A DNA stretch of 64,000 bases from Candidatus Zixiibacteriota bacterium (GTDB lineage Bacteria > Desulfobacterota > Binatia > UBA9968): assembly GCA_035574315.1 (NCBI GenBank), contig DATLYW010000033.1:62001-126000 (forward strand), given 5' to 3'. The translations under genes and the position numbers were made by a program. The notes under the pieces are model-generated. The model worked only from the letters and a program-made list of their open reading frames with translations, searched no databases and had not been told where the DNA came from. Numbering within the stretch: position 1 is the stretch's first letter; each line of letters opens with the position of its first letter. Positions 9,835 through 39,671 of the stretch are shown here, piece by piece.

Positions 9835-10890
9835 CTAGACCAGGCGCACCCAGGCTTTCTGGAGCGAGGTGGCGTAGCCGACCTCGGTCGCGATCTTCAC
9901 GCCGGCGGCGTGCAGCTCATCGATCAGCCGGGCGGCGTGGCGCTTGGCGATGGCGATCAGCAGTCCGCCGGAGGTCTGCGGGTCGAGCGCCACCTGGACC
10001 AGCCCCTCGCGGATCGAGCGGTCGATGGTGATCTTGTCCTGGAGGTACTCGCGGTTGCGTTTGCAGCCGCCGGTGATGTAGCCCTTCTCCGCGAGCCGGG
10101 CGGCGCTACGCATCAGTGGCAGCTTCCCCGACTCGATCACGAGCGTGACGCCGCTGCCGCTCGCCATCTCCAGGGCATGGCCGAGAATGCCGTAGCCGGT
10201 CACGTCCGAGCAGGCGTGCACCTGAAACTTCCGCATCACCGCCGAGGCGGTCGCATTGAGCGTGGTCATGGATTCTACCGCCTCGTCAACGCTTTCCTTC
10301 GACGCCTTGCCTTTCTTGAGAGCCGTGGTGATGATGCCGGTGCCCAGGCTCTTGGTGAGAATCAGCACGTCGCCTTCCTGGACTCCGACATTGCGGAAGA
10401 TGCGCTCGGGATGGATGGTGCCGGTCACCGCCATCCCGTACTTGATCTCGTCGTCGATGACGCTGTGGCCGCCGACCACCACCGCCCCGCTCTCCTTGAC
10501 CTTGTCCGCGCCGCCCTTGAGGATCTCCCCGAGAATCGACAGGTCCAGCTTGCCTTTCGGGAAGCAGACGATGTTCATCGTGGTCTTCGGGTCGCCGCCC
10601 ATGGCGTACACGTCGCTCAACGCGTTCGTGGCGGCGATCTGGCCGAAGACGTACGGGTCGTCCACGATCGGCGTGAAAAAGTCGACGGTGTTGACGATGG
10701 CCAGGTCGGGACGTAAGCGATACACCCCCGCGTCGTCGGAAGTTTCCGTTCCGACCAGCATGTCGCTGTTATTGAACTTGGGCAGGCTGTGCAAAACTTG
10801 CACGAGGTCGGCGGGGCCGAGCTTGGCGGCTCAACCCGCGGCCTTGACCTCTTGCGTCAGTCGCACGGTCCTGGATCTTCCCAATCGCAT
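9835..10890 (-). CDS. selD: Selenophosphate synthetase SelD, itself a selenoprotein
   Basis: SelD makes selenophosphate from selenide and ATP for selenocysteine and selenouridine synthesis. Complete length is 351 residues when the TGA at 10833-10831 is read as selenocysteine 20; the active site then reads AAG-U-AAKLGP, exactly where other SelD proteins have Cys or Sec, with the conserved Lys at 23. The upstream ATG at 10890 has a GGAGAT site and lies 17 bp after selB. Ignoring the Sec codon forces a false GTG start at 10803 and loses the catalytic loop. Later motifs (DFFTPIVDDPYVFGQIAATNALSDVYAMGG, in pieces, and GILGHALEM) confirm the family. An inverted repeat just after the UGA may be its SECIS. 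Confidence 0.93.
10789..10833 (-). promoter_or_regulatory. UGA-Sec codon and candidate SECIS hairpin of selD
   Basis: The TGA (10833-10831) is followed by two possible hairpins: TCGGC/GCCGA around a CCC loop, then GTGCAA/TTGCAC around a GTT loop at 10803-10789. The second has its loop 33-35 nt past the UGA and a G at the loop start, within the 16-37 nt window usual for bacterial SECIS elements. The pairing was judged by eye only. Confidence 0.5.
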
Positions 10891-10907
10891 AGGGATCTCC
10901 AACTCTT

Positions 10908-12839
10908 TCAACGGACCGCGTCGGGCTTTCCCGACGGCGGAGATTTCAAGCGCCGAATATCGCCGATCCGCACCGTCGTACCGACCCGGTCGAAATACTC
11001 TAGCAGGGCGATCGTGTATTTGCGACTGGAACCCAGCAGGTCGCGGAAAGCGGCGGCGGTGATCTCGCCCTTGTCCGATAGGAACCTATATAGAAGGTCC
11101 CGCACCCTGTCAACGTAAGCGCCGGTGAAATAGAGCTCCGAGGCGACCCGAACCACGGAGCCGTCGCGCTCCAGCAGGCGCATCACTTCGGCGAGCTTCG
11201 CCCGGCCGACGCCGAGATGCTTCTCGATTTCCTTCAGCTCGGGCGGCGTCCCGGGCTGCTCGGCGAGAAGCCTCTTGATCCTTTCCATCAGCGCTTTCTC
11301 GGCTCCGCCGAGCTGGACGCGGTGCGTGGACAGGCGCAGCAGGTTTTCCTCCTTGGCGATCGTTTTCTCGGCCAGCAGGGTGTCCACGACCGCGCGAAAA
11401 ATCTTCGGCGACAGCCGATAGAGCAGCTTGCCCCGAAGCTCCTCCATGTCCATGCCCGGAACGAGCGGGTGGCTCGCATGGAACGCGCCGAGCGCGTCGA
11501 GCAGCGCCTGGCGCAGCCGCTCCCATTTCGCCTGCGTCGTATAGACGCGTTCGCCCTCGGCGTTGAACGAGCGCAGCCCCGCGGTCTTCTGGATCGAGTC
11601 TCCCAGCTCCTCGGCCGTGAGGTTGAGGAACTGCTGGATCGCTTCGACCGGGAGCGCGAACTCCTTGCTTTCGTCGAGCAACGCCTGCGTCAGCGCGTCC
11701 TGGTCGCCCCGACGCAGCGTGTCCAGCCTCTCCTCGAGTCCGGTCTCGCCCCGTTTGTGCCGCTCGGCCCAGGGATGGAGCACCGTGCCTCCGGCGAGCG
11801 TCCGCTGTGCGGTTTCGTCGCGGAGGATGAAATGGTCGCCGCGGAGCGCCAGCAGCGGCTCGGCGAGCACGATCTGGCAGAAGGCCGACTGCTTCGGCTC
11901 GACGCGCTCCTCCCCGCCGAGCAGCACGATCCTGCCGAGCCGTTCCGCGGTGCCGAGGTGCACGCGGATGCGCTGATGGTTCTTGATGCCCTTGGCGGCC
12001 GCCGGCCGGACCTCGAGAAAGGCGTCGAAGCGTTCCGACGTCCGGGTGATGCTCTCGTGGCAGATCACGTGGCCCCGCTCGACCTCGGCGCGGTCCGGGC
12101 CGGTGAGGTTGAGCGCGACACGCTGGCCCCAGCCCGCTTTTTCGACCGGCCGGCCGTGGACCTGAAGGCTGCGGACGCGAAAGATCTGATCGCCCGGCAG
12201 GCAGCGCACGCGGTCCCCGGTCCCGATCTCGCCGCTCAGGGCGGTCCCGGTGACGATCACGCCGTGGCCCTGGAGGATGAAGGCACGATCGACGGGAAGC
12301 CGGAAATAGCCGCGCGGCGCCGGCCGATCGCACGATCTGAGCGTCTCGGCAATCCTGGTTTTCAATTCCTCGAGCCCCTGCCCGGTAACCGTCGAGACGG
12401 CGACGACGGGCGCTCCCTCGAGCGCGGTGCCAAGCGTCAGGATGCCGATCTCTTCCTCGACCTCGGCGATGCGCGCCGGCGGCACGAGATCGGCCTTGGT
12501 GATGACGAAGATCGCCATCTTGACGCCGAGAAGGTGGACGATGTCCAGGTGCTCCTCGGTTTGCGGCATCACGCCGTCGTCGGCGGCGACGGTGAAGAGC
12601 ACCAGGTCCATTCCGTGAGCGCCGGCCAGCATGTTGCGGATGAAGCGCTCGTGGCCTGGCACGTCGACGACGCCTGCTTCGGTGCCGTCGGGCAGCGTCA
12701 GGTGGGCGAACCCCAGATCGATCGAGATGCCGCGCTCTTTTTCTTCCTTGAGCCGATCGGTATCCTGGCCCGTCAACGCCTTGATGAGGCTGGTTTTGCC
12801 GTGATCGATGTGTCCCGCGGTGCCGATAATGTAGGGCAT
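10908..12839 (-). CDS. selB: Selenocysteine-specific elongation factor SelB
   Basis: Special translation factor of 643 residues that carries Sec-tRNA to UGA codons marked by a SECIS. The GTPase domain is intact: GHIDHGKT at 9-16, DVPGHE at 59-64 and TKAD at 114-117. Domains II and III follow, and the C-terminal ~270 residues form the winged-helix repeats that bind the SECIS hairpin. Length is close to E. coli SelB (614). It lies between selA and selD; a GTTCAA-type repeat fills the 163 bp before it. Both selenoprotein genes in this window would depend on it. Confidence 0.97.
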
Positions 12840-12848
12840 GTTCGGCGG

Positions 12849-12990
12849 TTCAAAAGATAAAAGTCGCTTCGCTCCAGTTCAAACCGTTCAAGCGGTTCAA
12901 CCGCTTGCTCCGCTCCGGCCGCCCGGCGCCGGGAGACGCCGATCGAACGCCCATGCCGGTCGCCGGTCCGCGGTCCCCGGCCGGCGCGGC
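12849..12990 (+). repeat. GTTCAA-type intergenic repeat, copy A
   Basis: Lies between selA and selB. Module 1 is CGCTTCGCTCC followed by GTTCAA units spaced 9 bases; module 2 is a GGCGCC-rich inverted stretch; module 3 is CCGGTCCGCGGTCCCCGG. The same modules occur at six other sites in the window. Confidence 0.7.
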
Positions 12991-13002
12991 AAGACGAAGG
13001 AA

Positions 13003-14400
13003 TCAGGCGCCGCCGGGGAAGTTCGGGACCAGATCCGAGGGTTCGAGGATCGCTCTCGGATCGAGCAGAAAACAGCCATCCTTGATCCTTCCGATGATCG
13101 GCGGATCCGCGGCGCGAAACCGACGCGCGATCCGCTCCGCGCTCTCGCTCGGATGCTCGATGGCGATCACCACGGTCGGGAGCTCCTCGGTCGGCAGGGC
13201 CCCGCTGCCGATCTGGGAGGTCGAGTCGCGCAGCGTGAAGCGGTATTCCGCCCCGAGCGCCGCCTGCAGTCGCGGCAGGGCCTGCTCGGCCACCGCGCGA
13301 ATTTCCTCCACAGGCCGGACAAAGGCCCGGAGCGTCGGGATCTCCCGGACGATCTCCGGCGATTGGACGTAGCGGCGGAGCGTCGCCTCGAGAGCGGCCA
13401 GGGTGAGCTTCCCGCAGCGGAGCGCTCGCTGCAAATGGTTCTTGTTGATCCGGGCGATCAGGTCCTTCTTTCCGACCATCAAGCCCGCCTGAGGTCCGCC
13501 GAGGATCTTGTCGCCGCTGAACGTGACCAGATCGGCGCCGGCCGCGAGGCTGTCGGCGACCACCGGCTCTTTCGGCAGACCGTAGCGGCCGAGATCGAAC
13601 AGCGCGCCGCTGCCGAGATCCTCCATCACGGGAAGATTGTGCCTGCGGCCGATCGCGACGAGCTCGGGGAGCGTCACCTCCGAGGAAAAGCCGACGATCC
13701 GGTAGTTGCTCGTATGGACTTTCAGCAACAGCGCGGTCTTTTCCCCGATCGCCTTCTCGTAGTCCTCGGGGTGGGTGCGGTTGGTGCTGCCGACTTCCCT
13801 CAGGACCGCGCCGCTCTTCGCCATGATCTCGGGGATCCGAAAGGAGCCGCCGATCTCTATCAGCTCGCCGCGGGAGACGATCACCTCTCTGCCGTCGGCG
13901 AGCGTGTTCAGCCCCAGGAGCACCGCCGCGGCGTTGTTGTTGACCACGGTCGCGGCCTCGGCGCCGGTCAGCTGCACCAGGAGCTTCTCGACGATCTGCT
14001 CGCGCCGCCCGCGCCGGCCCTCGGCGAGATCGTATTCCAGGTTGACGGGCCGGCCTGCGACCGAGACGACGGCATCGATGGCCGCGTCGCACAGGAGGGC
14101 GCGCCCGAGATTGGTATGCAGGATCGTTCCGGTGGCGTTGACCACCCGGGCCAAGCCGGGGCGGCTTTCGATCTCGACTTCCCGCTCGACGCGCTCGAGG
14201 ACGGCGGGCTCGCTCAAGGCGCCGGGCGGAAGGCTGCCGCCTTGCCGGAGCTCGCCCCGGATTTCGTCGAGCACTCGGCGGCACGTCCGGATCAGGTAGT
14301 CGCGGTTGTAGCGGCGCAGCAGCGCCTGGCACTTCGGATGGCTGACGAGGCGATCGATCGACGGCAAGTCGCGCAGAAGGGTTCCTGCCTGCTTCGCCAT
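13003..14400 (-). CDS. selA: L-seryl-tRNA(Sec) selenium transferase SelA
   Basis: PLP enzyme of 465 residues that converts Ser-tRNA(Sec) to Sec-tRNA(Sec) using selenophosphate. The PLP lysine is K298 in FSGDKILGGPQAG, matching E. coli K295. N-terminal PSIDRLVSHP and ARVVNATGTILHTNLGRA are also diagnostic. The ATG at 14400 gives a length equal to E. coli SelA; no strong ribosome site is seen. An upstream extension in frame (to 14595) has no family similarity and overlaps the divergent promoter region. First gene of selA-selB-selD. The Sec tRNA gene (selC) was not found in the window. Confidence 0.97.
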   Translation of the reverse strand: MAKQAGTLLRDLPSIDRLVSHPKCQALLRRYNRDYLIRTCRRVLDEIRGELRQGGSLPPGALSEPAVLERVEREVEIESRPGLARVVNATGTILHTNLGRALLCDAAIDAVVSVAGRPVNLEYDLAEGRRGRREQIVEKLLVQLTGAEAATVVNNNAAAVLLGLNTLADGREVIVSRGELIEIGGSFRIPEIMAKSGAVLREVGSTNRTHPEDYEKAIGEKTALLLKVHTSNYRIVGFSSEVTLPELVAIGRRHNLPVMEDLGSGALFDLGRYGLPKEPVVADSLAAGADLVTFSGDKILGGPQAGLMVGKKDLIARINKNHLQRALRCGKLTLAALEATLRRYVQSPEIVREIPTLRAFVRPVEEIRAVAEQALPRLQAALGAEYRFTLRDSTSQIGSGALPTEELPTVVIAIEHPSESAERIARRFRAADPPIIGRIKDGCFLLDPRAILEPSDLVPNFPGGA

Positions 14401-38436: not shown

Positions 38437-39048
38437 TTACCGGGAGGCCGTGTCCGCTTCGTCGATCGCCCGGCGAACCAGCCGTTCGAGCGTCTCGTAG
38501 GGGTGCGCGCCGACCAGCATGTAGCGGCCGGCCACGAAAGTCGGAACCGCGTCGATGCCCAAGGCGGCGCAGCGGCGCCAATCCTGGTCGACAGCCCCCT
38601 TGAAGGTGCGCGCGGCGAGAATTTCGAGGGCTTCGTCGGCGGGCAGCCCGGCCTCGGCGGCGATGGCGCCGAGCACGGCGGCCTTGCCGATGTTCTTGGC
38701 GTCCACGAAGTAAGCGCGAAAGATCGCGTCGTGGACCTCCCGGCCTTTGCCCCGGCTCTCGGCCCATTTGGCGAGCTCCTGCGCCAGCCGGCTGTTGTAG
38801 GACATGTCTCGTTCGGCGTTGTACGGGAGCCCTTCTCGGTCCATGCTCTCCTTCATCCGGAGGTTTCTGGCGACCGCCTCGGGGCCGCGCGGCGCGCCGT
38901 CCTCGGGCGTTTCCGGATGGAGCGGAAACTGAGTCGTTTTGACCGCCAGTCCGTAACTGGCCCTGAGCTTCTCGACACGCCCGGTGACGAGATAGCACCA
39001 CGGTCAGACAAAATCCGAGAAGACTTCCAGCACCACGGGCGGCGCCAT
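38437..39048 (-). CDS. Selenocysteine-containing DsbA/FrnE-family oxidoreductase
   Basis: Thioredoxin-fold protein of 203 residues if TGA at 39006-39004 is read as selenocysteine 15. The start then reads EVFSDFV-U-PWCYLVTG, putting Sec exactly at the first Cys of the FrnE/DsbA CPWC site (Cys 18 remains). The frame stays open on both sides, the cis-Pro loop is present (GIDAVPTFVAG) and the ATG has an AGGAGG site. The window also encodes SelA, SelB and a Sec-type SelD. A conventional caller would report only a 139-residue fragment starting at 38856. It lies 29 bp after the DUF488 gene. Substrate unknown. Confidence 0.9.
38971..39006 (-). promoter_or_regulatory. UGA-Sec codon and candidate SECIS hairpin of the DsbA-like gene
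   Basis: Twelve bases after the TGA, CTCGTCAC (38991-38984) pairs with GTGTCGAG (38978-38971) with one T-T mismatch, closing a CGGGC loop. The loop begins 21 nt past the UGA and has G at its second position, as bacterial SECIS hairpins do. Confidence 0.6.
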
Positions 39049-39077
39049 GATTTCCTCCTGATCGGGAATCGCCGATT

Positions 39078-39671
39078 CTACTTTTCCTCGCGCCACAAAG
39101 TCAAAGGCTCGCCGCCCGGAGTTGCGGCCGCGGCCGGATAGAAGATCCTGGTTCCTTCGGGCCGCGCGAACGGCGGCAGGCGATGCTCCCGGCAGCCGTC
39201 GTCGAGGATATGGCGCACGCGCCAGCCCCGCACCACGAACGCGTCCGCGAGCAGCTGCCGGTGGCACCGCCACGGCAGCGCTTCGGCGCACATCAGCGCC
39301 GTCGGTCGCTCCTTGGCGAGCCCGGCGATCTCCTCGACCCCGGCGGCGAATTCTTCCGTCAGCGCGAAGTCGGCGTAACCGCGAAAAGCCGCCGTCTTCC
39401 AGCCCGTGTTCGGCGAGCCGGGCGCTGGCTTGCGGAAGCCGCCGAGGTCCCCGCGCCAGCGGTAATCGATTCCCGCCCGGCCGAGCAGCTCCGCGAGCGT
39501 CTCGCGGCAGAAATGCGGCAGGCGGCGCGAAACGGGCCAGCGGCGCACGTCGACGAGGAGCGCAACGCGGTGGAGCGCGAGCAGCTCGATCAACGGCTGC
39601 GCTGCGCGCGTCGAGTGTCCGACGGTGTGGATGACGTTATTCAGGCGCGCGCAATCGGCAACGGCGTCCAT
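39078..39671 (-). CDS. DUF488-family protein
   Basis: Protein of 197 residues matching DUF488: NNVIHTVGHSTRAAQPLIELL at the start, LLVDVRRWPVSRRLPHF, and the Cys/His motif ALMCAEALPWRCHRQLLAD. These conserved Arg, Cys and His residues suggest an enzyme, but none has been established that I can name with confidence. It is 29 bp upstream of the selenoprotein gene in the same direction, so the two are probably one unit. Confidence 0.85.
   Translation of the reverse strand: MDAVADCARLNNVIHTVGHSTRAAQPLIELLALHRVALLVDVRRWPVSRRLPHFCRETLAELLGRAGIDYRWRGDLGGFRKPAPGSPNTGWKTAAFRGYADFALTEEFAAGVEEIAGLAKERPTALMCAEALPWRCHRQLLADAFVVRGWRVRHILDDGCREHRLPPFARPEGTRIFYPAAAATPGGEPLTLWREEK

Follow-up and report, generated by a model that had tools for sequence, protein, structure and literature searches.

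The locus studied here raised the question of whether an in-frame TGA at the first cysteine position of a CPWC active site is read as selenocysteine (Sec) or marks a broken oxidoreductase gene. We addressed this question in the window, that is, the whole 64,000-nucleotide stretch of DNA analyzed, and concluded that its product is very probably a thiol-disulfide oxidoreductase of the cytoplasm, belonging to the FrnE branch of the DsbA family, with a Sec15-Pro-Trp-Cys18 site and cis-Pro169, in which Sec would be inserted by means of SelA, SelB, SelD, and a hairpin. The gene has the following features.

38437..39048, minus strand: predicted selenoprotein gene for a 203-residue FrnE-type DsbA-like oxidoreductase with a UPWC active site (reading frame, Pfam DSBA match, and AlphaFold model)
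39004..39006, minus strand: UGA codon predicted to be read as Sec, at residue 15 in place of the first Cys of CPWC (TGA in 79 of the 80 best-scoring relatives)
39054..39059, minus strand: ribosome binding site AGGAGG (from the sequence)

The minus-strand frame comprised 203 codons starting from an ATG at 39048, with AGGAGG 5 nt ahead of the ATG, and its sole in-frame stop was the TGA at codon 15. Around this codon the protein read FSDFV-U-PWCYL, and the frame then remained open as far as the stop at 38437. Thus, the original prediction was borne out in placing a TGA exactly at the first Cys of CPWC, in a frame open on both sides and behind an AGGAGG ribosome site, and also in expecting a cis-Pro loop, which we located at V168-P169-T170. 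Apart from Sec15, the only residues of this kind were the cysteines C18 and C160; no hydrophobic leader was present, and the first strand started at residue 6 of the AlphaFold model. A default ORF caller yielded just a 139-residue piece (38437-38856) from an in-frame ATG at 38856, as had been anticipated for standard annotation. Because such annotation trims the gene to a fragment without the active site, a widespread redox enzyme is missed.

That the ORF caller found this fragment alone would fit a pseudogene, produced by a nonsense mutation in an ordinary Cys-containing FrnE gene; however, the codon proved to be conserved. Among 58 genomes, all related to the window genome and including it, the gene with TGA at exactly codon 15 was present in 28 (same family or order). 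A second set of relatives, which overlaps the first in part since some of the organisms are the same, was obtained by querying a collection of genomes with the aligned post-TGA part only, a choice made to avoid bias. In the best 80 loci by score, codon 15 was TGA in 79 and TGC in one, a count in which distant Cys relatives may be under-sampled because the loci were ranked by score; this was the homologue comparison at residue 15 that the original prediction had called for. The 80 loci came from Binatia, "Deltaproteobacteria" metagenome-assembled genomes (MAGs), Alpha-, Beta-, and Gammaproteobacteria, Rokuibacteriota, Acidobacteria, SAR324, Pirellulaceae, Nitrospiraceae, Syntrophaceae, and Desulfobacterales. 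Compared with five relatives, pN/pS past the TGA was 0.28-0.41, and purifying selection therefore persists downstream of the codon. The identical TGA in several phyla, the frames open on both sides of it, the low pN/pS, and the conserved hairpin described below all speak against a pseudogene; since the TGA is shared and purifying selection has continued, this explanation is already refuted, and we leave it practically no chance.

The in-frame ATG at 38856 would also allow the 139-residue downstream ORF to be a separate functional protein, with the UGA ending a leader peptide. We consider this very improbable, because the N-terminal part supplies strand beta1 and the helix that bears the active site in the DsbA fold, its residues D12, P16, W17, and C18 are invariant, and the stretch from the UGA to the ATG is conserved as protein.

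We then compared the RNA downstream of the UGA, where a hairpin starting 12 nt after the TGA had been predicted and was found.

38971..38991, minus strand: predicted bacterial SECIS hairpin, with arms at 38984-38991 and 38971-38978 and the loop at 38979-38983 (CGGGC)

The hairpin, with a 5-nt loop and a stem of 8 pairs that includes one mismatch, began exactly 12 nt past the TGA. It occupied columns 16-36 of alignment A3, with the loop consensus C-G-[G/U]-G-C and an invariant G25. In the 80 sequences, 92% of the stem cells were paired, and pairing fell to 23-49% when the partner was shifted by 1-3 columns. Changes on both sides of a pair were observed in 23 cells against a mean of 4.4 in shuffled alignments, and none of 500 shuffles reached as high a value; for the pairs of the window, columns 21/31 went from U-A to C-G and columns 19/33 from A-U to G-C. 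When synonymous codons were shuffled in the 80 sequences such that the protein was preserved, 4.29 stem pairs were expected (sd 0.13, maximum 4.68 in 500), compared with 7.36 of 8 observed, and the stem held the codons CGT, AGT, and ATT, which form the minority in the rest of these genes. The minimum free energy alone was only mildly low (z -1.4 for the window hairpin under dinucleotide shuffling; mean z -0.88 for 81 sequences under synonymous shuffling), and the case for the hairpin thus rests on the pair-specific and covariation tests. An Rfam scan of the window matched no SECIS and no other RNA family. By comparative sequence analysis, the hairpin after the UGA is a conserved, covarying bacterial SECIS, and the 80 sequences make up a well-supported alignment of a bacterial SECIS.

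The machinery for Sec was encoded in the same window.

13003..14400, minus strand: selA, selenocysteine synthase, 465 residues (TIGR00474, 596.6 bits, cut-off 267.9)
10908..12839, minus strand: selB, Sec-specific elongation factor, 643 residues (TIGR00475, 399.5 bits, cut-off 242)
9835..10890, minus strand: selD, selenophosphate synthetase, with an in-frame TGA at 10831-10833 (GUAAK) (TIGR00476, 384.6 bits)

The three genes form one same-strand row (9835-14400), and SelD is itself a selenoprotein, with one in-frame TGA (GUAAK). A tRNA-Sec with anticodon UCA was found on the same contig, about 7.2 kb to the left of the window, so that selA, selB, selD, and tRNA-Sec were all present in the genome. 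As the inserted residue is not revealed by sequence alone, a changed code or a suppressor tRNA might in principle decode the UGA as some other amino acid. Yet the selA and selB frames both close on a TGA where their proteins should finish, and TGA is thus otherwise a stop; moreover, the genome has a complete Sec pathway including tRNA-Sec (UCA), the codon is followed by a dedicated hairpin, and the only other codon seen at this position was TGC. Non-Sec decoding accordingly appears highly unlikely. The pathway also accompanied the TGA elsewhere: selA was present in 26 of the 28 TGA-bearing relatives, and sampling of other groups gave 14 of 15 TGA-bearing genomes with selA. It was missing in G004, which also gave no strong tRNA-Sec match, in G010, where tRNA-Sec was present, and in the genome of L068, and incomplete assembly probably explains these three cases.

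With Cys placed at the UGA, the protein matched Pfam DSBA (PF01323) with an E value of 8.6e-33 (114.2 bits, cut-off 25.6), as did all 26 of the aligned relatives. The best sequence matches in the PDB were Deinococcus radiodurans FrnE (E 1e-19) and SCO1869. An AlphaFold model built from an 81-sequence alignment (pLDDT 95.6, pTM 0.91) had FrnE structures as its top structural matches (Z 27, with an rmsd of 1.8 over 201 residues), clearly ahead of HCCA isomerase (Z 20-21), of kappa GST (Z 19), and of periplasmic DsbA (Z about 15-16). In the 81 sequences, D12, U/C15-P-W-C18, FPLHP 41-45, W157, V168, and P169 were invariant. C160 was considered as an invariant extra Cys and rejected, since it was near-constant in near relatives but was Ser in 54 of the 81. 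The common superfamily fold leaves room for a selenoprotein that, like HCCA isomerase or kappa GST, would use glutathione as an isomerase or transferase instead of acting as a disulfide oxidoreductase; however, FrnE was matched much better, and a UxxC motif with an invariant second Cys and a cis-Pro suggests a dithiol-type site, and we regard the isomerase or transferase alternative as unlikely. The modeled cytoplasmic DsbA-like fold, the UPWC site, and FrnE as the top structural match assign the protein, by structure and motif, to the FrnE subfamily (cd03024). As C18 and C160 are the only cysteines besides residue 15, the protein has no counterpart to the C-terminal CX4C pair seen in Deinococcus FrnE. 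This pair occurs in many FrnE proteins but not in all, being absent in those of D. maricopensis and S. roseofulvus (PMC8945050), and is not a defining feature of the subfamily. Taken together, conservation, Sec machinery, hairpin, and fold gave strong support to the proposed selenoprotein of FrnE/DsbA type with UPWC as its active site.

The original prediction had also paired the gene with its upstream neighbor.

39078..39671, minus strand: DUF488 gene, an upstream neighbor only (PF04343, E 5e-28)

Among all loci fetched, only this one and that of the closest relative (L011/L052, one and the same region) had DUF488 adjoining the selenoprotein gene. Adjacency confined to the nearest relative gives no signal of functional pairing; thus, this part of the prediction did not hold, and we rejected a functional DUF488 link as a conserved pairing. 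No conserved gene neighborhood was observed across the fetched loci; short-chain dehydrogenases, CoA-linked genes, and others recurred near the gene within close relatives only. A promoter-like site (39075-39104, minus strand; 10/12, 18-nt spacer) extends over the end of DUF488, immediately ahead of the selenoprotein gene.

We propose the following mechanism. SelD would produce selenophosphate, and SelA would charge the tRNA-Sec (anticodon UCA) with Sec. Homology and the conservation of the hairpin suggest that SelB binds this element 12 nt past the UGA and delivers Sec there. From thioredoxin-fold chemistry and from FrnE, Sec15 is the likely attacking nucleophile on a disulfide or an oxidized substrate, and Cys18 would resolve the mixed intermediate to form a selenenylsulfide. 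Because the C-terminal CX4C is absent, an outside thiol donor would be needed to reduce the selenenylsulfide again. In Deinococcus, FrnE works in the cytoplasm as a disulfide isomerase/reductase and contributes to tolerance of cadmium, diamide, and oxidants (PMC8945050), and our best guess, by analogy, is that the present enzyme may serve the same process.

In the phylogenetic tree, the main family formed one clade (100/99) beside Cys FrnE-type proteins, with a Cys member nested within it. This member, L082, was the only Cys form that the main clade yielded; it comes from a betaproteobacterial MAG and carries TGC at codon 15; it retains 3 of the 8 stem pairs, the hairpin being lost, and no selA was detectable in its genome. 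It thus represents a natural control, and a nearly all-Sec family with a natural Cys form makes the question of what selenium buys testable on matched proteins. The TGA was not confined to this family: more distant homologues in the same class, Binatia (23-32% identity), carried it at the same codon, in no fewer than three further types, namely UPFCW (L132, L133), UPWCY followed by N or V (L134-L136, L142, L143), and UPWCF/Y-PAA (L137-L140), which together form the distant Sec-bearing set (L132-L143 except L141). No clear hairpin was seen in single-sequence folds of these distant Sec subfamilies (L132-L143). The type with UPWCY followed by N or V had close Cys counterparts (L148, L150, L151, L153), and pairs such as L134 with TGA beside L151 with TGT indicated repeated switching between Sec and Cys; five such changes are the minimum that the tree requires. 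In other related DSBA-fold proteins (L146, L147, L149, L158), SSLCY, SSLSY, or SALCY replaced CPWCY and the first active-site Cys was missing.

Both the nearly Sec-only clade across phyla and the further Sec-bearing DsbA subfamilies in Binatia are new here. We give about even chances to the broader proposal of an old, nearly Sec-only FrnE-type branch for which selenium is almost obligatory, accompanied by further Sec-bearing DsbA subfamilies with repeated Sec/Cys switching. The extent of this branch is an equally balanced judgment, and it may include at least Binatota, Pseudomonadota, Rokuibacteriota, Acidobacteriota, Planctomycetota, Nitrospirota, Thermodesulfobacteriota, and SAR324. Most selenoprotein families among the thiol oxidoreductases have many Cys members, unlike the branch proposed here.

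The original prediction had described a Sec form of FrnE as little described, and this has to be corrected. COG2761, which we take to be the FrnE group, is relevant in this respect. A survey of the Sargasso Sea in 2005 reported nine DsbA-like UxxC selenoprotein sequences and assigned them to COG2761 (PMC1088965); in 2016, DsbA-like selenoproteins ranked tenth among bacterial selenoprotein families by organisms, with 41 organisms (PMC5029168); and a 2026 review lists a "DsbA-like protein form 1, PF01323, UxxC" (PMC13188914). DsbA-like UxxC selenoproteins having already been reported, the present gene belongs to a known kind. In the collection of literature that we searched, nothing joined selenocysteine with a CPWC DsbA, or DsbA-like selenoproteins with FrnE.

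Among the described selenoproteins, form 2 of the DsbA-like proteins (PMC13188914) is likewise a PF01323 selenoprotein; however, it has a crotonase fusion and a DxxUP Sec motif, and no fusion was present here. Form 1 shares with our protein the DSBA domain (PF01323), a single Sec first in UxxC, and a SECIS just downstream, and no difference was apparent at the level of its description, the clade being matched by family and motif only. Among Cys proteins, SCO1869 of Streptomyces coelicolor (PDB 3gl5), labeled a probable DsbA oxidoreductase by its depositors, shares the fold (Z 25.7 over 200 residues) at 29-30% identity. D. radiodurans FrnE (DR_0659; PDB 5cnw/5cp1) resembles our protein in its fold (Z 27, 30% identity), in the position of its CP(W/F)C site, in the cis-Pro loop, and in having no signal peptide, and differs in that Sec here takes the place of the first Cys and the C-terminal CX4C is missing.
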